The position numbers and the translations under genes are program-made. DNA of 64,000 nucleotides from Paenibacillus bovis (GTDB lineage: Bacteria > Bacillota > Bacilli > Paenibacillales > Paenibacillaceae): positions 2,535,501 to 2,599,500 of the forward strand of contig NZ_CP013023.1 of NCBI RefSeq assembly GCF_001421015.2, written 5' to 3'. The notes beneath the pieces were generated by a model. It was given only the letters and a program-made list of their open reading frames with translations. It did not search any database and was not told the DNA's origin. Of the stretch, positions 4,296 to 15,017 are shown piece after piece; within the stretch, counting starts at the first letter, position 1; each line of letters opens with the position of its first letter.

Positions 4296-4601
4296 GTGTA
4301 TATTGTACAATCCATTGTCCAGGTGCCGGAACACAAAGCCGAAGAGCTGGTGGAAGTTTACCGTAACCGCAGCAGGTCAGTGGATCGGCAGCCGGGATTT
4401 GTATCTTTTCAACTTCTTCAGAGTGAGACTACACCGGGTGAATTGATCGTTCACATGTCCTGGGATACCAAAGAAAGTTATATGGCCTGGGTACAGAGCT
4501 CCGATTTCAAACGTATACATGAACTGGAAAAAGCATATCCAGATCAGGAACTAACAGATATCAAGCCTGCTGTCAGACGTTATCTGGTACGTGCGGAGTA
4601 G
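4296..4601 (+). CDS. Antibiotic biosynthesis monooxygenase (ABM) fold protein
   Basis: A 101-residue ferredoxin-like alpha/beta-barrel protein of the ABM superfamily, which includes the heme-degrading IsdG/HmoA/HmoB enzymes and quinone-forming monooxygenases. The pattern PGFVSFQLL, then SWDTKESYMAWVQSSDFKRIHE, matches the core of heme-degrading members, including the W and the distal H; the N-terminal Asn found in IsdG is not evident. The start is GTG with a GGGGG site upstream. It leads what looks like a three-gene operon with a B12-binding protein (34 bases downstream) and a histidine kinase, so a role in tetrapyrrole handling is tempting but is inference. Confidence 0.7.
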   Translation: MYIVQSIVQVPEHKAEELVEVYRNRSRSVDRQPGFVSFQLLQSETTPGELIVHMSWDTKESYMAWVQSSDFKRIHELEKAYPDQELTDIKPAVRRYLVRAE

Positions 4602-4635
4602 TCCTCTTTACTGACAAGTCAGGAGGTGTCCGCAG

Positions 4636-5715
4636 ATGGCCTTACAGGAAAAAGAAACAGCAGGACAACAATTAATTATAGAAGCAGACCGGCTTGCAGA
4701 ACAGGTTACCCATATGCAGTACCTGAAACAGCCAGATCTGTACCAGCGTTTTGGAGCCAAGGGTAGAGAGCGAACGAAACAGGATTCTTTGTACAGCTTG
4801 AGTTATTTAGCTGAGAGCGTACTTATGAAAAGTCCTGCTTTGTTCATGAACTATATCTCTTGGCTCAAATTGCTTTTAAGCGGTTATCGTGTAACCGAAG
4901 AAGATCTGATTGTGAATCTAGTAGCGATCAAACGGGTACTGCTTGATCATTTCGAACATAATGACAAATCCAGTGTAGTGGATTATCTGGATATGGGCAT
5001 TGACCATGTTCGCACAGTAGAGCTTCAGCAAACCTATATTACGGAAGATTCCGTACTGGGAGCAGAGGCCCGAGAATATCTGGAGTATCTGCTGCAGGCA
5101 GATCGCAAGCAAGCCTACACTCTTATTGTTACTCTACTCGATCAGGGAATCGCCATAAAAGATATTTATATTCATATTTTTCAGAAATCACAGTACGAAA
5201 TCGGTAGGTTATGGCAGATTAGCCGGATAAATGTCGCACAGGAGCATTATTGTACAGCTGCGACACAGAGTATTATCTCTCGATTATATCCATACTGGCT
5301 GCAAGCAAGCAGTTCTGGCAGACCGCGCCGACTGGTATCCGCCTGTGTCGGTACAGAGCAGCATGAGATTGGTATTCGGATGCTGACCGACTTTTTTGAA
5401 ATGGATGGCTGGGATACGTATTATCTGGGAGCCAATGTTCCCGACCACAGTCTGATTCAGTCTATTACAGATTACGAGGCGGATATTGTAGCCATTTCGG
5501 TAACTATGACCTTTCATGTTCATCTTGTTCATGAATTGATTGAGAAGATCAGGGCATCCGAGAAGACCGCACAGATCAAAATTATCGTCGGAGGGTTGCC
5601 TTTTAATATAGATCGGAGTCTCTGGAAACTGGTGGGAGCAGATGGTTATGCTCCGGATGCGAATGAAGCCATTCAATTGGCTGATACTCTGGTACCTGTG
5701 GCAGAACTCGGATAA
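4636..5715 (+). CDS. B12-binding protein with photoreceptor-type Wx9EH signature
   Basis: A 359-residue soluble protein. Residues about 25-125 form a helical N-terminal domain I do not recognise. Residues about 140-222 fit the four-helix cap of B12-dependent photoreceptors, with W193-x9-E203-H204, the Wx9EH signature of CarH/LitR-type light sensors that shields the upper face of adenosylcobalamin. Residues about 230-355 form the Rossmann-like B12 domain: E241-x-H243-x-x-G246 (the E/DxHxxG motif, H243 the lower cobalt ligand), then SVTMTF and a VGG turn (318-320). Unlike CarH it has no MerR DNA-binding domain. The start has a GGAGGTG site. The next gene is a hybrid histidine kinase lacking a sensor domain, so this protein may be its light or cobalamin input. 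Confidence 0.8.
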   Translation: MALQEKETAGQQLIIEADRLAEQVTHMQYLKQPDLYQRFGAKGRERTKQDSLYSLSYLAESVLMKSPALFMNYISWLKLLLSGYRVTEEDLIVNLVAIKRVLLDHFEHNDKSSVVDYLDMGIDHVRTVELQQTYITEDSVLGAEAREYLEYLLQADRKQAYTLIVTLLDQGIAIKDIYIHIFQKSQYEIGRLWQISRINVAQEHYCTAATQSIISRLYPYWLQASSSGRPRRLVSACVGTEQHEIGIRMLTDFFEMDGWDTYYLGANVPDHSLIQSITDYEADIVAISVTMTFHVHLVHELIEKIRASEKTAQIKIIVGGLPFNIDRSLWKLVGADGYAPDANEAIQLADTLVPVAELG

Positions 5716-5746
5716 ACCGGATCAGCCGGATTATAGGGAAGGGAAG

Positions 5747-7486
5747 ATGAATACAATGTCAAATGCAGAGCATGAAATCATGGTTTTGCGCAAAACGATT
5801 GAAGATCTTTCCCACCAGATTATCAATAGCAAACACCAGGAAGAACGAATTTTGTCCGAATTCTCTTCGATGAACAGCGAACTGGTCAATCTGCAGCGTC
5901 TGCTTGCCAAAAGCAATGCAGAGCTCAAGGCAGCACGGGAAGAAGCGGTCAATGCTAATCAGGCACGGGCCCGCTTTCTGGCGATTATGACCCACGAGAT
6001 ACGTACACCGATGAATGGTGTGATCGGCATGGCGGAGATTCTGCTATCCTCGGACCTCTCGGATGAACAGAAGCGCTCGGTACTGCTGATTCAGGAATCG
6101 GCCGAGCTGCTGCTCGGGATGATCAACAATATGCTGGATCTGTCCAAAATGGAAGCAGGCAAAATGCAGCTGCAGGAAAGTACGGTCAATATGCGCCTGC
6201 TGCTGGATCATATCATTCGTCTAATCGAACCAAAGGTACGCGAAAATGAAAATACCATTTCTGCATTTATTGATTATCGTGTAGAAAGTAACCTGATCGG
6301 CGACGGTGGACGAATTCGCCAGATCTTGCTGAATTTGCTCAGTAATGCGAATAAGTTTACCCAGAATGGTAAAATCGAGATCAGTATACAGCTGAAAGAA
6401 AATAGTGCAAATTTACAATCCCTCCACATTGAGGTGTCTGATACAGGCATCGGCATTGCGCCGGATCATCAAAAGAATCTATTCCAGCCCTATGCACAGG
6501 CAGACCGGCCGGAGCAGCAGGATGTGGAAGGAACCGGGCTGGGACTCTCCATCTGTAAGTCATTGGTAGAGTTAATGGAAGGAACAATTGATTTGAAAAG
6601 CGATAAAGGCAAAGGTTCTACGTTCTGGTTCGATATTCCACTCAAGAAAAGCCCGAAAGAATCGGAGCTGCTCGTTCAGACAAGAGCAAGCAGCAACGAG
6701 CAATCAGGCAGTCAGAACGAATCTTCAGTACCGCCTCTAGCTGTCAACCAGATGGAAAATCCGATTCTGATCGTAGAAGATAATCCGATCAACAGTCAGG
6801 TTATTCAGCTCCAATTAAAGAAAATGGGCATTACCAATGTGCATACAGCGATTAATGGACAAGAAGCGGTCTCTATCTATCTCAGTCATAATTATCTGAT
6901 GGTACTGATGGATAATCGAATGCCGGTAATGGACGGTTTTCAGGCTACACGCAAAATTCGCGAACTGGAAGCCACCGAGATGCGTGTAGCTGTTCCGATT
7001 ATTGCACTTACCGCGAATACCAGTCAGGAAGATCGGCAGCGTTGTCTGGATGTAGGTATGGACGATATTCTGACCAAGCCGGTGAATTTGGATAGTCTGA
7101 CTCGCATTATGCATAAATGGCTACCAGTTACGATTACTGAAAAAATTCTGGATATGAGTGTGATTCAGGAGATTATAGAATTAAATGAAGCCGGAGATCC
7201 GGAAGTACTGCGCACGCTGATTGGCATGTATCAGAGCGAGACACCAAAGAAGCTGGAACGATTGCGCAGACTGGCTGCTGCAGGTGACGCGGAAGCACTC
7301 GCAGACGCAGCCCATGAATTGAAATCGGGCAGTCTCAGTATTGGGATCAATCACTTATCCCAGCTGCTATCCGAGATTGAGAAAAAATCGCGCCAGCAGG
7401 ATATGCAGGACATATCACAAATGGTCGAAGCCTTGTTCCCTGCTTACGAAAAAGCCAAGAAAGAACTGGAACAGCTGGTAAATTAA
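5747..7486 (+). CDS. Soluble hybrid histidine kinase (HisKA-HATPase-REC-HPt)
   Basis: From ATG 5747, chosen because AGGGAAGGG precedes it and the longer frame would overlap the upstream gene, the protein has 579 residues. Order: coiled coil (about 8-70), HisKA with H83 in THEIRTP, HATPase with N box (NLLSNANKFT, about 196-205), DTGIGI (232-237) and GTGLGLS (262-268), receiver with E344/D345, phosphoacceptor D389 and K444, and HPt with H523 in AAHELKSGS. There is no membrane segment, PAS or GAF domain, so the signal must arrive by protein contact. Internal REC and HPt make a full phosphorelay, but no output domain is present and a separate response regulator is needed. Partner: very likely the B12 protein encoded 31 bases upstream (inference). 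Confidence 0.92.
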   Translation: MNTMSNAEHEIMVLRKTIEDLSHQIINSKHQEERILSEFSSMNSELVNLQRLLAKSNAELKAAREEAVNANQARARFLAIMTHEIRTPMNGVIGMAEILLSSDLSDEQKRSVLLIQESAELLLGMINNMLDLSKMEAGKMQLQESTVNMRLLLDHIIRLIEPKVRENENTISAFIDYRVESNLIGDGGRIRQILLNLLSNANKFTQNGKIEISIQLKENSANLQSLHIEVSDTGIGIAPDHQKNLFQPYAQADRPEQQDVEGTGLGLSICKSLVELMEGTIDLKSDKGKGSTFWFDIPLKKSPKESELLVQTRASSNEQSGSQNESSVPPLAVNQMENPILIVEDNPINSQVIQLQLKKMGITNVHTAINGQEAVSIYLSHNYLMVLMDNRMPVMDGFQATRKIRELEATEMRVAVPIIALTANTSQEDRQRCLDVGMDDILTKPVNLDSLTRIMHKWLPVTITEKILDMSVIQEIIELNEAGDPEVLRTLIGMYQSETPKKLERLRRLAAAGDAEALADAAHELKSGSLSIGINHLSQLLSEIEKKSRQQDMQDISQMVEALFPAYEKAKKELEQLVN

Positions 7487-9395: not shown

Positions 9396-9514
9396 ACTTG
9401 ACAATATTCAAATATATAACCGGAAAACAGGTTCGGAAAGCGACAAAATGGAAAAAAGCAGCAGGATTTACCTATTCATCAACAAGTAATGTCAAGTAAA
9501 TGGGAGGTACTCGT

Positions 9515-11107
9515 ATGCAATTGACTGTTCAGGAAGCGTTGGCGGTGTACCCGCTATCAGAAGCGCGACTGGTTGCGGGTGCCGGCGGAACGTCACGGCT
9601 GATGAAGTCGGTGAACGTAATGGATGCACCGGATATTGCCGACTGGGTGAAAAGTGGTGAAATGCTCTTTACCACGGCTTTTCTGATGAAAGACAATCAG
9701 GAGGAAGCGATCAAGCTCATGCGCAAGCTGAATGAACGCGGATGTGCAGGCATGGGGGTCAAATTGGGACGCTTCTGGGATGTGATCCCGCAGGTCATTA
9801 TCGAGGAAGCAGATCGACTGCAATTTCCGCTGCTGGAACTGCCGTTTGAATTTACGTTTTCGGATCAGATGAATGCCCTGTTCCAGGTAGAGCATGAGCG
9901 CAGCACCAAGCTATTGCAATCTGTACTGTCCAAGCAAAAGCAGCTAATGCAGTTTGCGCTTCATCAGGATTCGCATGTCAATGTATTTGCCGTGCTGGAG
10001 ACTATTCTGAAATATCCTGTCGCTATTATCGGTTCACGCGGACACGTACTATATAACAGTGGCGAAGGTCGGGAAGATGGTCTGCTGCAGGGCTGGCCCT
10101 GGAAAATAGCACTGACACGGGTGAAATGGAATCAGGGCAGCTGCTACCGGGTACCGATTATGCAGCGCGATGAGCATTATGGGTTTCTGCTTGTATTTAC
10201 CGATACTGCGATTCAGTTAAAGGAAGAAGAAGAGTTGTTCCAGCAGGCGGCTGAGGTACTGGCATTCCACATGGACACTACATACCGCGAACATATCAAT
10301 CCGGGTATTCAGGACAAAATGCGTACACTCGTATCCGAGCATCTTGGCCGTCGTATTACGCTGACCGATCTGGTTCAGGGTGCTGAGCATTTGGGGATCA
10401 ATCTGTTTCCGGGACCGTATCAGTGTGTGCTGACGACGCTGGAGCCGCAGGCTTTTTCCTCCGAGAAACGGCTGGCACAGATTCATCAGGAATTGCAGTA
10501 CAATCCGCTGATGCAGTTGTTTCCGTCGCAGCACTTTCGGGTGGAAGAAGGTATTCTGTCGATCTATGCCTGTCCGTCAGAGCGGGATTATGGGGAAGAA
10601 TTGTCTGCTTTCCTGATGAACCGGTTTGAAGATATGGCAGGGCTGGCCAGCAGTGGAGGCAGTCCGCGCTTTTGGATCAGCAATATCAAGCTCAAGCCGG
10701 ATTCTTTTCGGGAAGCCTATCAGGAAGCGGCAGAGACGCGCAAGCTGGCCAAACGGTTTGGCATGGGACATATGGCGCTACAGTTTCATACGGTGGAGTT
10801 TGCCTATGTATTCCAGCATGTGCCGGAACAGATTATGGAAACTTACTGTCATAAAGTATTGGAGCCGCTGACGATCCGGGACGGCGATCCTAATCAGGTG
10901 CTGATGAATACGCTGGAAGCTTTCGTAGAAAATGATGGTCTGATCAACGAAGCTGCTCGGCAGCTGTATGTGCATCGGAATACCGTTACTTATCGGATGG
11001 ACAAAATTGGCAGTATGCTGCAGATGGATTTCAAGAAAACAAATGATCTGTTAAAGCTGAAGATGGTCTTTACTTTTCGTAAATTTCTAAAGCACAAACC
11101 GTCCTGA
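9515..11107 (+). CDS. pucR: PucR-family transcriptional regulator of purine catabolism
   Basis: 530 residues from ATG 9515, chosen because GGGAGG (9502-9507) lies 7 bases upstream; an ATG at 9500 would overlap that site. The N-terminal PucR domain (about 5-125) includes LLELPFEFTFSDQMNALF. A CdaR GGDEF-like middle region follows, and the C-terminal HTH_30 domain (about 467-520) shows AARQLYVHRNTVTYRMDKI. In Bacillus subtilis PucR activates purine and ureide catabolic genes, with allantoin-type intermediates as signals. Here it stands directly upstream of uraD-uraH-allB-allC-pucG and pucABCDE homologues, so it is the likely local regulator. Confidence 0.92.
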   Translation: MQLTVQEALAVYPLSEARLVAGAGGTSRLMKSVNVMDAPDIADWVKSGEMLFTTAFLMKDNQEEAIKLMRKLNERGCAGMGVKLGRFWDVIPQVIIEEADRLQFPLLELPFEFTFSDQMNALFQVEHERSTKLLQSVLSKQKQLMQFALHQDSHVNVFAVLETILKYPVAIIGSRGHVLYNSGEGREDGLLQGWPWKIALTRVKWNQGSCYRVPIMQRDEHYGFLLVFTDTAIQLKEEEELFQQAAEVLAFHMDTTYREHINPGIQDKMRTLVSEHLGRRITLTDLVQGAEHLGINLFPGPYQCVLTTLEPQAFSSEKRLAQIHQELQYNPLMQLFPSQHFRVEEGILSIYACPSERDYGEELSAFLMNRFEDMAGLASSGGSPRFWISNIKLKPDSFREAYQEAAETRKLAKRFGMGHMALQFHTVEFAYVFQHVPEQIMETYCHKVLEPLTIRDGDPNQVLMNTLEAFVENDGLINEAARQLYVHRNTVTYRMDKIGSMLQMDFKKTNDLLKLKMVFTFRKFLKHKPS

Positions 11108-11168
11108 ATCGATAATCTCATAGTAAAGGCAATGCCTGGTCCTGTGATCAATAGATGTTGCTGCTTGT

Positions 11169-11208
11169 ACCCTTATCTGTATGGAGTATCTCCCGGATAA
11201 GGGTTTTT
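11169..11208 (+). terminator. Terminator after pucR
   Basis: ACCCTTATC (11169-11177) pairs with GATAAGGGT (11196-11204), followed by TTTTT. It separates pucR from the ureide operon. Confidence 0.85.
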
Positions 11209-11294
11209 GCTGTGCAGCAACCGAAAAGGATAAGGCATAGATCACAAAACGCTACTATTGTGTTATGTTATATGACAAAATAAAAATAAATAAG

Positions 11295-11323
11295 TTGATA
11301 TGTTCGATTACCTTACGTAAAAT
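11295..11323 (+). promoter_or_regulatory. Promoter of the ureide operon
   Basis: TTGATA (11295-11300), exactly 17 bases, TAAAAT (11318-11323), ending about 50 bases before the uraD start. It probably drives uraD through at least the gamma-glutamyltransferase homologue. I could not identify a PucR box with confidence. Confidence 0.6.
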
Positions 11324-11376
11324 GATAAAAATATCTGATTTTACCGACTATACCAAACAAAATGAGGTTGATATTG

Positions 11377-11892
11377 ATGATATCTGTAGAGCAGCCATGG
11401 AATGCTTGGACAAAAGAAGAATTTATACAGCATTTTGGCGGATTGTATGAACATTCCGCCTGGGTAGCCGAGCAGGTATGGGAGTACAAGCCATTTGCCA
11501 GCTTACAGGAAATGCTGGATCGTATGAATGAAGTGGTTCTATCTTCCGGCAGGGACAAACAGCTGGAGCTGCTGAGACAGCATCCGGATCTGGGCAGCCG
11601 AATTCAGATGAGTGAACATTCACAATCCGAGCAGGCAGGCGCCGGGCTGACTGATTTATCCGCCGATCAGTATGAACGCTTATCACGCGGGAACAGTGAA
11701 TACACGGCGACGTACTCTTTTCCTTTTATCCTGGCTGTCAAAGGTAAAACGGCAGATCAGATTCTGGCAGCACTGGAAGCGCGTCTTGGTCAACCGGAGG
11801 AGGAGGAATTTGTTACTGCCCTGCAGCAGGTGCAGATTATTGTTGGATTGCGGCTGAGAGAATGGGCGAGCCGCCATGGTATGACGGTATGA
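11377..11892 (+). CDS. uraD: OHCU decarboxylase (UraD)
   Basis: Decarboxylates 2-oxo-4-hydroxy-4-carboxy-5-ureidoimidazoline to S-allantoin in urate breakdown. From ATG 11377 the protein has 171 residues, the family size; GAGG precedes this ATG at good spacing, whereas the ATG at about 11362 has no ribosome site. Signatures: HFGGLYEHSAWVAEQVW (around 15-31, with the catalytic His), HPDLGSR, SEQAGAGL and YSFPFILAVKGKT. In B. subtilis this activity is the N-terminal half of the bifunctional PucL fused to uricase; here it is a stand-alone gene and the uricase half is missing from the window. Confidence 0.93.
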   Translation: MISVEQPWNAWTKEEFIQHFGGLYEHSAWVAEQVWEYKPFASLQEMLDRMNEVVLSSGRDKQLELLRQHPDLGSRIQMSEHSQSEQAGAGLTDLSADQYERLSRGNSEYTATYSFPFILAVKGKTADQILAALEARLGQPEEEEFVTALQQVQIIVGLRLREWASRHGMTV

Positions 11893-12248
11893 AAGGCAAA
11901 GTAACTACACATGTACTTGATCTGGGCAAAGGAGGCCCGGCAGTAGGAATGAAGGTGGCGCTATATGCCGAAGATTCTCTTGTAGCGCTGGCTAGCGGCG
12001 TGACCAATGAGGATGGCCGACTGGATGAGCCGCTGCTATCCGTAGAAGCCATGCAGCCGGGAATCTATCAATTGATCTTTTATGCGGGGGATTATCTTCG
12101 TTACCAGGCGGAACACAATCAGGTGACACAGACCTTATCACTGTGGGATCAGATTCCGATTCGGTTCACGATAACTGATGAACAGGGCAATTATCATATT
12201 CCACTGCTGCTGTCACCCGGTGGTTACAGCACTTATAGAGGCAGTTAG
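11889..12248 (+). CDS. uraH: 5-hydroxyisourate hydrolase (transthyretin-like)
   Basis: Hydrolyses 5-hydroxyisourate to OHCU, the step before UraD. The 119-residue product begins MKGKVTTHVLDLGKGGPA, with the family HVLD histidine, and ends in the diagnostic YRGS tetrapeptide. The ATG at 11889 overlaps the uraD stop as ATGA, which suggests translational coupling; an in-frame ATG at 11862 would add nine atypical residues. Length and both end signatures match the family (PucM in B. subtilis). Confidence 0.92.
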   Translation: MKGKVTTHVLDLGKGGPAVGMKVALYAEDSLVALASGVTNEDGRLDEPLLSVEAMQPGIYQLIFYAGDYLRYQAEHNQVTQTLSLWDQIPIRFTITDEQGNYHIPLLLSPGGYSTYRGS

Positions 12249-12349
12249 CAGCAACTGGTTTGTTTGCCGGAAACGAATAGTATGGGAGCCATGCAGCGTT
12301 AGATCGGCCAGATGCAGTAATCCTATATTTGCACAAAGGGGGAAGGGTT

Positions 12350-13750
12350 ATGCAGCCAAATACCTGGAATTGTATTATCAAAGGAGGACTGGTTGTGCTG
12401 CCGGATCGAATCGAGCAGCTGGATATTGTTATCCAAGAAGGCAGGATACAATCGCTAATGCCGTATCAGACTGCATCAGAAGAACTGCCACTGCCGGTAA
12501 TCGATGCAGCCGGACTGCATGTACTTCCTGGTGCGATAGATATTCATGTTCATTTTAACGAGCCGGGTCTGGGTGCCTGGGAAGGGTTCGAGACAGGTTC
12601 GGCAGCACTGGCGGCAGGAGGCATTACTACTTATGTTGATATGCCGCTCAATGGAGTACCGCCAACCGTCAAACCGGAATACCTGATATTGAAAAAACAG
12701 GCGGCCGAAGGACGTTCCTATGTGGATTATGCATTATGGGGTGGTCTGGTAGAAGGGAATATCGACCAGCTGGAGGGACTTGCAGCCGGCGGAGCAGCAG
12801 GATTCAAAGCGTTTATGTCAGAACCGGGAGGAGAAGGAGAAGAGATCTTCACCCGGGCAGATGATCAGACGCTGCTGGAAGGCATGAAGGAGATTGCCCG
12901 GCTCGGTGGGGTGCTGGCAGTGCACGCAGAAGATGAACAGCTCGTCTCGGTTCTGGCGGCGGAGGCCCGGCAGCAGGGGAGAATGGACGCGATAGATTAT
13001 ATCCATTCCCGTCCGGTGGAAGCAGAAATGCTGGCTGTACAGCAGGCACTGTCCTATGCTCGCGAGAGCGGCTGTGCACTGCACTTTGTACATATTAGCA
13101 GCCGGGAAGCCGTCGATATAATCATAGCAGCCAAAAAGGAAGGGCTGGATGTAACTGTAGAAACCTGTCCGCATTATCTGGTGCTGACAGAAGAATCGAT
13201 GCTGACGCAGGGAAGCATTGTCAAATGTGCTCCGCCTCTGCGAAGCCGACAGCAGCAGGAACAGCTGTGGGAAGCAGTCCGTGAAGGATTAATCGATATT
13301 ATCGCCTCGGATCATTCGCCGTGTCCTCCGGCTATGAAGCAATCAGATGACTTTTTTGCAGTCTGGGGAGGTATATCGGGTGGACAGAGTACACTGCTGC
13401 TTATGCTGGAACAGGGCTACCATCAGCGGGGTATTCCGCTGCCACAGCTGATGCAGATGCTGGCTGACCAGCCGGCCGAACGGCTGGGATTAAGCCATAT
13501 CAAAGGCAAAATCGCTGAAGGCATGGATGCAGATCTGGTATTGGTCAATCTGACGGAGCCTTACGAACTGACTTATGAAGAATTGTATGACCGACATAAA
13601 CAGAATCCGTACACTGGCTTTACTTTTTCTTCTACTATTGTACGCACACTGGTAAGGGGAAATACGGTGTATCAATCTGAACAGGGGCTTGTCTCCCAAC
13701 CTGTAGGCCGATTCATCGCCCGGCAGCCAGGAGGTGTAGTTCATGGTTGA
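12350..13750 (+). CDS. allB: Allantoinase
   Basis: Opens the hydantoin ring of allantoin to allantoate. From ATG 12350 (GGGGGAAGG site just upstream) it has 466 residues. It is a metal-dependent amidohydrolase: H66-x-H68 in DIHVHF, carboxylated K153 in GFKAF, H192 in VHAEDEQ, H248 in VHIS and D321 in SDHSP form the binuclear zinc site. The GITTYVDMPLNG stretch is typical of allantoinases. It sits between uraH and allC and overlaps allC by 8 bases, giving a pathway-ordered operon. Confidence 0.95.
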   Translation: MQPNTWNCIIKGGLVVLPDRIEQLDIVIQEGRIQSLMPYQTASEELPLPVIDAAGLHVLPGAIDIHVHFNEPGLGAWEGFETGSAALAAGGITTYVDMPLNGVPPTVKPEYLILKKQAAEGRSYVDYALWGGLVEGNIDQLEGLAAGGAAGFKAFMSEPGGEGEEIFTRADDQTLLEGMKEIARLGGVLAVHAEDEQLVSVLAAEARQQGRMDAIDYIHSRPVEAEMLAVQQALSYARESGCALHFVHISSREAVDIIIAAKKEGLDVTVETCPHYLVLTEESMLTQGSIVKCAPPLRSRQQQEQLWEAVREGLIDIIASDHSPCPPAMKQSDDFFAVWGGISGGQSTLLLMLEQGYHQRGIPLPQLMQMLADQPAERLGLSHIKGKIAEGMDADLVLVNLTEPYELTYEELYDRHKQNPYTGFTFSSTIVRTLVRGNTVYQSEQGLVSQPVGRFIARQPGGVVHG

Positions 13751-15017
13751 GCAGACAGCAGCAGTGCTGGATCAATACAGTATCCGAATGAATGATATGC
13801 TGGAATGGCTGTCCGGTTACGGGGCGGATGAGCAGGGAGGGGTAACCCGGCTGTTGTACAGTAGAGAATGGATAGCTGCGCAGGAAGCCTTGTCTTCTTA
13901 TATGAAAGAACAGGGTCTGGAGACTTTCTATGATCAGGCGGGTAATCTGACTGGCCGGCTCGTAGGGAGCAATCCTGATCTGTTGCCGGTAGTCACCGGG
14001 TCACATATCGATACAGTGATCTGCGGCGGTAAATATGATGGGACCTATGGTGTAGTCGCTGGTATTCTGGCGCTTGCCTATTTGCAGCAGGTATATGGAC
14101 CGCCGGTACGAACGATTGATGTAATCTCGCTCTGTGAAGAAGAGGGCAGCCGGTTTCCGCTAACCTACTGGGGTTCGGGCAATATAGCCGGAAATTATAG
14201 TATGGAACGGATTCCGGCAGTGTCGGATCGGGAAGGGATTACGTTGGAAGAGGCCATGTCAGCAGCCGGATTTGGTCCAGATTCACCCTACAGATCATGT
14301 TTGCGGAGCTGGGATGCATATATCGAACTGCATATTGAACAGGGCTTTGTACTGGAGCGCAGTCAGCAGCAGATTGGCATCGTGAATGGTATTGTCGGTC
14401 AGCGACGTATCCGTGTAAGTGTTGGCGGAGAAAGCAATCATGCCGGCACAACGCCAATGGGCTGGCGTCGTGATTCGCTGGCCTGTGCTGCTGAAATGAT
14501 TACCTGTATCCGCCATTCGGCTCTGGAAATGGGCGATCCGCTGGTAGCTACCGTAGGATCAATCCAGCCTTCGCCTGGAGTATCCAATGTAATCGCCGGA
14601 GAAACGATATTTACTCTGGATATTCGCCATCTGGACCGGAAAGTACTGGATGAATATACAGATAAGCTTCAGCAGAAGCTGCGCAAGATCGCCAGCCAGG
14701 AAGGAATGGATATGTACTGGGAGGAGAATCTGAATATTGATCCGGTACTGATGCATCCGGATATTATTACGGATTTGCAGCACATATGCGAGTCGTCAGG
14801 GATCGCCTGCCGCACTATGCCAAGCGGTGCCGGACATGATGCACAGGTACTGGGCAGTCAGCGTCCGGCAGCTATGATTTTTGTACCGAGTCGGCAAGGG
14901 ATCAGTCATAATCCACTGGAATATACTGCTGACGAAGATCTGATGCAGGGTTTCCGTGTACTCACAGAATGGTTATACCAATATGCTTATCGAGGTGAAT
15001 GCCATGAAACGTTATAA
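13743..15017 (+). CDS. allC: Allantoate amidohydrolase (M20 family)
   Basis: Hydrolyses allantoate to ureidoglycine, CO2 and ammonia. 424 residues. M20 metallopeptidase-like motifs: GSHIDTV (H88), GGKYDGTYGVV (D99), CEEEGSRFPLTYWGS (E133/E134), HIEQG (metal-binding His of the lid region), ESNHAGTTPM and the C-terminal GAGHDAQ histidine. This set separates allantoate and carbamoyl-amino-acid amidohydrolases from ordinary aminoacylases. The GTAGTTCATGG junction overlaps allB, and allC overlaps pucG by 14 bases, so the three are one transcript. B. subtilis PucF is the homologue. Confidence 0.94.
   Translation: MVEQTAAVLDQYSIRMNDMLEWLSGYGADEQGGVTRLLYSREWIAAQEALSSYMKEQGLETFYDQAGNLTGRLVGSNPDLLPVVTGSHIDTVICGGKYDGTYGVVAGILALAYLQQVYGPPVRTIDVISLCEEEGSRFPLTYWGSGNIAGNYSMERIPAVSDREGITLEEAMSAAGFGPDSPYRSCLRSWDAYIELHIEQGFVLERSQQQIGIVNGIVGQRRIRVSVGGESNHAGTTPMGWRRDSLACAAEMITCIRHSALEMGDPLVATVGSIQPSPGVSNVIAGETIFTLDIRHLDRKVLDEYTDKLQQKLRKIASQEGMDMYWEENLNIDPVLMHPDIITDLQHICESSGIACRTMPSGAGHDAQVLGSQRPAAMIFVPSRQGISHNPLEYTADEDLMQGFRVLTEWLYQYAYRGECHETL

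Follow-up and report, generated by a model that had tools for sequence, protein, structure and literature searches.

What is a protein of B12-photoreceptor type doing directly in front of a histidine kinase that has no sensor domain of its own? The question is raised by a 64,000-nucleotide stretch of the Paenibacillus bovis genome (5.5 Mb, two contigs; C1:2535501-2599500), called here the window, in which three genes follow each other on the plus strand: one for an ABM-fold protein (4296..4601; 101 aa, GTG start), one for a protein of 359 aa (4636..5715) and, after a spacer of 31 bases (5716-5746), one for a soluble hybrid histidine kinase of 579 aa (5747..7486). The same gene coordinates and gap were obtained in the original prediction, made from the DNA letters alone, which suggested that a B12-photoreceptor-type protein acts on the adjacent sensorless kinase. 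Our results favor, with a probability of about 0.7, a reading in which a soluble two-chromophore photoreceptor of the photocobilin type would act in trans to control a histidine kinase dedicated to it.

The N-terminus of the 359-aa protein had been described as helical and unassigned, but it can be assigned to a photoglobin (biliverdin-globin) domain (residues 1-132; 4636..5031, plus strand). It is followed by a B12-binding module (residues 140-355; 5053..5700, plus strand) in which a four-helix cap precedes a Rossmann domain, and Pfam places B12-binding_2 at residues 146-217 (1.5e-12) and B12-binding at residues 232-346 (1.8e-24). The cap residues W193 (5212-5214) and E203-H204 (5242-5247), spaced as W-x9-EH, and the cobalt-ligand motif E241-x-H243-x2-G246 of the Rossmann domain (5356-5373) were found at the residues previously given. 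A B12 module with a W-x-EH cap and an E/DxH motif, fused to a phycobiliprotein-like biliverdin-globin domain, is the combination by which photocobilins are recognized, and photocobilins are also the best structural match of the protein, with about 30% identity to the B12 module of SasPcob, the standalone photocobilin of Saccharothrix syringae (PDB 8J2W/8J2X), whose pocket is formed by Trp61, Glu71-His72, His108, Asp270 and Trp296 (PMC10979010). Once a numbering offset of 5 residues in the PDB-search chain, deduced from W61/E71/H72, is applied, D50 (codon 4783-4785) and W76 (codon 4861-4863) align with the SasPcob biliverdin contacts Asp270 and Trp296. Since the N-terminus is a globin of the bilin-binding type, the protein is to be seen as a photocobilin and not as a CarH-like sensor of B12 only.

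Conservation was followed in 81 sequences, the window protein and those of the 80 loci described below; one of them lacks the N-terminal region (L118), and another has a stop in that stretch and was left out of alignment A3 (L094). Alignment A1 did not include L052, whose frame is interrupted. The residues W193, E203, H204 and H243 are identical in 81/81, and therefore the motif is not a product of chance, while D50 and W76 are identical in the 80/80 sequences that include the region and, together with L58, are the only invariant positions in a 46-sequence alignment of the photoglobin domain. The homologue of a close relative, the record labelled Paenibacillus dauci, is 93% identical to the window protein. 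Photoglobins have been reported to carry a CxQD motif (PMC10151467), and because its Cys position, residue 47, is Thr in the window protein (Cys in 8/81 homologues), the bilin would be expected to be held non-covalently, like that of SasPcob. A further likeness to SasPcob is Gln at residue 194 (Gln in 77/81, His in 4/81). By domain identity and pocket conservation the 359-aa protein is thus a photocobilin-type receptor, for which chromophore binding is predicted.

Two other identities were considered and dropped. A CarH-like repressor is at odds with the Pfam result, which, as the original prediction had it, reported no DNA-binding domain, and with a score of 38.7 bits against a cut-off of 400 for NF052513. 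Partial NCBIfam matches to MtgC, MtbC and pyl_corrinoid would suit a protein that carries methyl groups on a corrinoid for some methyltransferase and lies beside the kinase by chance, but all these matches are far under the curated cut-offs (60.9 vs 370 bits for MtgC, the best, and 55.8 vs 350 for MtbC), the structural match goes to photocobilins and the gene that follows codes for a signalling enzyme in every locus examined, so that, although no systematic search of the neighbouring genes for methyltransferases was made, we regard this reading as highly improbable.

The kinase carries HisKA, HATPase_c, Response_reg and Hpt domains, each over its curated Pfam cut-off, and nothing but a coil-like stretch N-terminal to HisKA, in agreement with the earlier description of a soluble kinase whose sole N-terminal feature is a coil. 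Comparison of 59 whole genomes, that of P. bovis and those of relatives, located the photocobilin gene in 21/59, and the kinase was next to it on the same strand in 20/20 relatives' loci. One of the 21 genomes (G014) has an interrupted photocobilin frame (L052, about 947126-947858 of contig C5), with the neighbouring kinase frame still open. A wider survey, in which two B12-domain peptide patterns were run against a contig collection described as holding 84,980 species, returned 128 relatives, of which the best 80 were analysed further. Fifty of these are Paenibacillaceae-type records, one of which bears the label Neobacillus mesonae, and many of the fifty are so closely related that 80 is not a number of independent events; the other 30 include, by record title, Chloroflexi, Thiotrichaceae, Desulfoferrobacter, Syntrophobacteraceae, Heliorestis, Treponema, Bacteroidales and Cloacimonadota, as well as the archaea Methanolobus and Methanohalophilus. 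A signalling enzyme lies downstream on the same strand in 80/80, namely 78 histidine kinases (counting the L104 kinase, which was placed as adjacent by hand on account of long reading frames), one GGDEF protein (L129) and one SpoIIE-domain protein (L135). In most loci the open frame of the partner touches the photocobilin gene at its end or runs into it, with a median offset of -8 bases in 79 loci, measured to the open frame and not to the start codon; the exceptions are L109, where 396 bases include an intervening 108-aa open reading frame (ORF), and L113, with 124 bases. The trees of the two proteins correlate with rho 0.68 in 78 loci and 0.31 in the 28 outside Paenibacillaceae, values that were obtained without a control and carry little weight. 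As bacteria and archaea that are only distantly related keep the two genes side by side, the photocobilin-type partner is probably the route by which light acts on the kinase. The idea of a B12-photoreceptor-type protein acting on the adjacent kinase thus gained strong comparative support from linkage, the genes being anything but unlinked in other genomes, although the receptor proved to be a photocobilin and not CarH-like.

A conserved coil is the feature that distinguishes these partners from other kinases. In the window it spans 5795..5950 (plus strand), contains NSELVNLQRLLAKSNAEL and is proposed as the receiver of the photocobilin signal; its consensus is LNNELVxxQRELAKKN. A first profile, built on kinase residues 1-60 from 20 Paenibacillaceae-type sequences, matches exactly one ORF in 79/80 loci, always the photocobilin partner and the GGDEF protein included, and recognizes the partner in 29/30 loci outside Paenibacillaceae. 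The coil is present in 0/23 other kinase frames of the same loci, after hand correction of L104, although one of these frames (82 aa, L139) may be a piece of that locus's own split partner. A second profile of 25 sequences (A5), searched through 26 whole genomes, had its best match inside the partner frame in 25/26 (E 1.1e-23 to 7.3e-14), and in P. bovis the partner coil was the sole match at E<=0.01 (2.0e-17); outside partners the strongest matches were 4.2e-6 (G081) and 0.0028 (G080). By eye, 26/30 partners outside Paenibacillaceae and four hand-picked Paenibacillaceae-type ones (L043, L095, L099, L103) have a conserved N-terminal domain, some 110 residues long, in front of the coil, and this is absent from the window kinase and from L114, L121, L122 and L126; Pfam named no family there in eight kinases that carry it. 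The coil is shared more widely than this domain and is therefore the likeliest point of signal entry.

The computed gene anatomy, domain identities, pocket conservation, linkage and coil specificity can be joined in one scheme. By analogy with SasPcob and AbDPcob, a photocobilin fused to a diguanylate cyclase, adenosylcobalamin would be held between the W193/E203/H204 cap and H243, beside a bilin, probably biliverdin, clamped by D50 and W76 in the photoglobin domain, and its Co-C bond would be broken by green light directly or by red light through the bilin. Departure of the adenosyl group would then shift the cap helix and alter the dimer interface. For the steps of kinase gating, coil docking and onward relay we infer that the altered receptor would dock on, or leave, the N-terminal coil of the neighbouring kinase and so switch a relay from His to the REC Asp and the HPt His, towards a response regulator.

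As to the supply of chromophores, the genome encodes a PduO-type adenosyltransferase and a canonical heme oxygenase. The latter adjoins the gene of an 847-aa bacteriophytochrome-GGDEF protein (L055:3316-6488, minus strand), whose presence means that P. bovis likely has at least two light-sensor systems. Among the 59 genomes a canonical heme oxygenase is present in 19/21 with the photocobilin gene vs 0/38 without it (Fisher 1.5e-13), and, as 16 of the 21 belong to one genus, also by genus in 3/5 vs 0/30 (p=0.0015). A heme oxygenase survey of the 80 loci covered 76 genomes (48 Paenibacillaceae-type and 28 others; L116, L063, L096 and L109 were left out), several of them common to the 59-genome set, and 38/48 Paenibacillaceae-type holders have the enzyme, 31 with a phytochrome and 7 without; in three of these seven, inspected for it, no phytochrome lay beside the heme oxygenase. 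Besides the photocobilin, PF02310 picked out a single protein in P. bovis, a 638-aa ORF (L056:5587-7500, plus strand) that by resemblance is probably of the radical-SAM type, and no MetH turned up there with PF02310 or the photocobilin query.

Several observations weigh against light control of the kinase by a bilin- and B12-bearing partner. A phytochrome is present in 18/19 heme-oxygenase genomes among the relatives, a confound, because the enzyme may serve the phytochrome instead; 10/48 Paenibacillaceae-type holders lack it, and PF01126 heme oxygenase is missing from 27/28 holders outside Paenibacillaceae (G077-G104), many of which are metagenome-assembled genomes (MAGs) of completeness not established, even though the bilin-pocket residues are kept. 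Several of those lineages are, we assume, strict anaerobes, for which oxygen-dependent biliverdin and sunlight are doubtful. An anaerobic bilin route by HutW was considered and rejected, as 0/28 reach the HutW cut-off, and the matches below it, seen in 28/28, may be HemN/HemW-like. Of the published light signature, GxxW, EH, GxxH and GxxxP (PMC11796333), the window protein has GxxW, EH and GxxxP, but GxxH reads TxxH (T240), with Gly there in 32/81 only, and the Pro of GxxxP is absent from 7/81 sequences. In L135 the coil profile does not match the SpoIIE partner, nor was any A5 match found genome-wide in the genome whose partner is SpoIIE (G100). Finally, only 6/26 genomes (G059, G069, G074, G091, G100 and G104) supplied no row to A5, and 5/6 of these match at the partner, so that the genome-wide specificity of the coil is weaker than it appears, most genomes having supplied profile rows.

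Part of this evidence would suit a cobalamin sensor, or a corrinoid sensor of redox or oxygen, in which the kinase reports adenosylcobalamin occupancy and it is only by the way that light can break the Co-C bond. All pocket residues are kept in holders without PF01126, namely methanogens (L114, L122), a Treponema-labelled MAG (L137) and a Cloacimonadota-labelled MAG (L131), lineages that are presumably anaerobic. However, a sensor of B12 only leaves the strict retention of the D50/W76 bilin contacts unexplained, the W/E/H cap residues are those of adenosylcobalamin photoreceptors, and presence of the photocobilin gene tracks heme oxygenase and phytochrome among relatives, so that we consider this reading unlikely. 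The light-gated reading is preferred, and the source of the bilin in holders that lack heme oxygenase outside Paenibacillaceae is its main unexplained fact.

The gene that leads the set bears on a further alternative. It had been noted as ABM-fold and heme-oxygenase-like; the fold was confirmed by Pfam (E=5.9e-17), whereas a heme oxygenase function was not supported. IsdG-type heme-degrading monooxygenases use a catalytic triad of Asn, Trp and His, and in 15 aligned ABM copies W65 and H75 are invariant while the triad Asn position is an invariant Ser (Ser6, 15/15), opposite which 8avh (heme-degrading) and 1iuj have Asn; moreover, the canonical heme oxygenase is encoded elsewhere in the genome. 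Heme degradation by the ABM protein is thus possible, not supported, and the gene may be a heme- or bilin-related accessory. It lies upstream of the photocobilin gene in at least 9/50 Paenibacillaceae-type and at least 4/30 other loci, counts that are lower bounds because upstream genes were Pfam-scanned in 7/80 loci (ABM in 4/7) and the single-sequence phmmer used for the rest missed L109. The photoglobin domain could then sense a tetrapyrrole chemically, such as biliverdin or another product of heme degradation, which the ABM enzyme makes or consumes. The gene's position in the window and in those loci agrees with this, as does its presence in front of the photocobilin gene in both relatives that have photocobilin but lack heme oxygenase (G017, G023), but fewer than half of the loci showed an adjoining copy and the position of the catalytic Asn holds Ser, and we hold this heme-turnover sensor to be improbable. 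A role for ABM as substitute heme oxygenase, suggestive in those two relatives, was rejected, as the named holders showed no enrichment (3/10 lacking vs 5/38 bearing heme oxygenase, p=0.34).

Two observations stand apart from the unit. Positions 9500-15017 of the window hold, by eye, a purine/allantoin catabolic run with PucR-like regulator, allantoinase-like and amidohydrolase-like ORFs, unrelated to the photocobilin genes, and an Rfam scan of the window gave no family, hence no riboswitch, at gathering threshold. A stand-alone 129-aa photoglobin-like ORF (L058:6574-6960, minus strand) keeps the D and W residues and has a CRED motif, and no B12 or kinase gene was recognized next to it by eye.

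The receptor family is already known, and what is new is its constant partnership in trans with a specific coil. The words 'kinase' and 'Paenibacillus' are not present in the main texts of two photocobilin papers, and the pairing was not recognized in titles and abstract beginnings among the matches listed for histidine kinases together with photocobilin, photoglobin or B12 photoreceptors. An earlier notice of the pairing is possible, as signal transduction domains in the gene neighbourhoods are reportedly mentioned in Schneider's 2022 photoglobin abstract. The cellular role of standalone photocobilins was called "less clear" in the discovery paper (PMC10979010), and the cassette offers them a partner, a candidate contact in the coil, and Bacillota hosts for testing. 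If true, light control by this soluble receptor would give green/red dual-colour control of a histidine kinase, useful for optogenetics, and it raises the question of which molecule sits in the bilin pocket of those organisms in which the searches turned up none of the known enzymes for making bilins. A bolder proposal, tentative and with the odds leaning against it, would be a single previously undescribed light-gated two-component unit across bacteria and archaea, made of a free two-chromophore receptor and one dedicated coil, which each genome would seem to use a single time and which could serve a kinase or a diguanylate cyclase as output. In this proposal the many holders without heme oxygenase, methanogens included, would fill the conserved bilin pocket with a chromophore from an as yet undescribed, possibly oxygen-free route.

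Soluble sensors encoded beside the histidine kinase that they regulate in trans are familiar from nitric oxide sensing, in the H-NOX/HnoK and NosP/NahK pairs, but these sense through heme and have a fold unrelated to the window receptor. CarH/LitR share its adenosylcobalamin cap and cobalt-ligand residues, and differ in their MerR-type DNA-binding domain, in lacking the bilin-type domain and in having a second His as ligand in the bis-His light state, where the window protein has Q194 (PMC11796333). The original prediction stated that the photoreceptors known to have such a cap work directly on DNA, which holds for these but is incomplete, since the target of photocobilins is an enzyme, in trans as well (PMC10979010). 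Photoglobins and BBAG-2 globins likewise tie a photoglobin domain to B12-binding domains, and the Cys of their CxQD motif recurs in some homologues though not in the window protein; the available part of their description does not mention a kinase pairing (PMC10151467). In AbDPcob (PDB 8J2Y) the photocobilin also controls a signalling enzyme, as predicted for the window pair, but the two are fused in cis and His takes the place of the biliverdin-binding Asp (PMC10979010), whereas the partners described here are proteins of their own, mostly histidine kinases, with the single GGDEF partner of L129. SasPcob is among the nearest known systems: both proteins have the same two domains, keep the W/E/H/H residues for B12 as well as the D and the W that line the biliverdin site, have Gln beside the Trp of the cap, lack at the motif position (T47 here) a Cys to which a bilin could be linked covalently, and have no output domain fused to them. 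Unlike SasPcob, the window protein has the globin first, in reversed domain order, and a dedicated kinase with a conserved coil next door.

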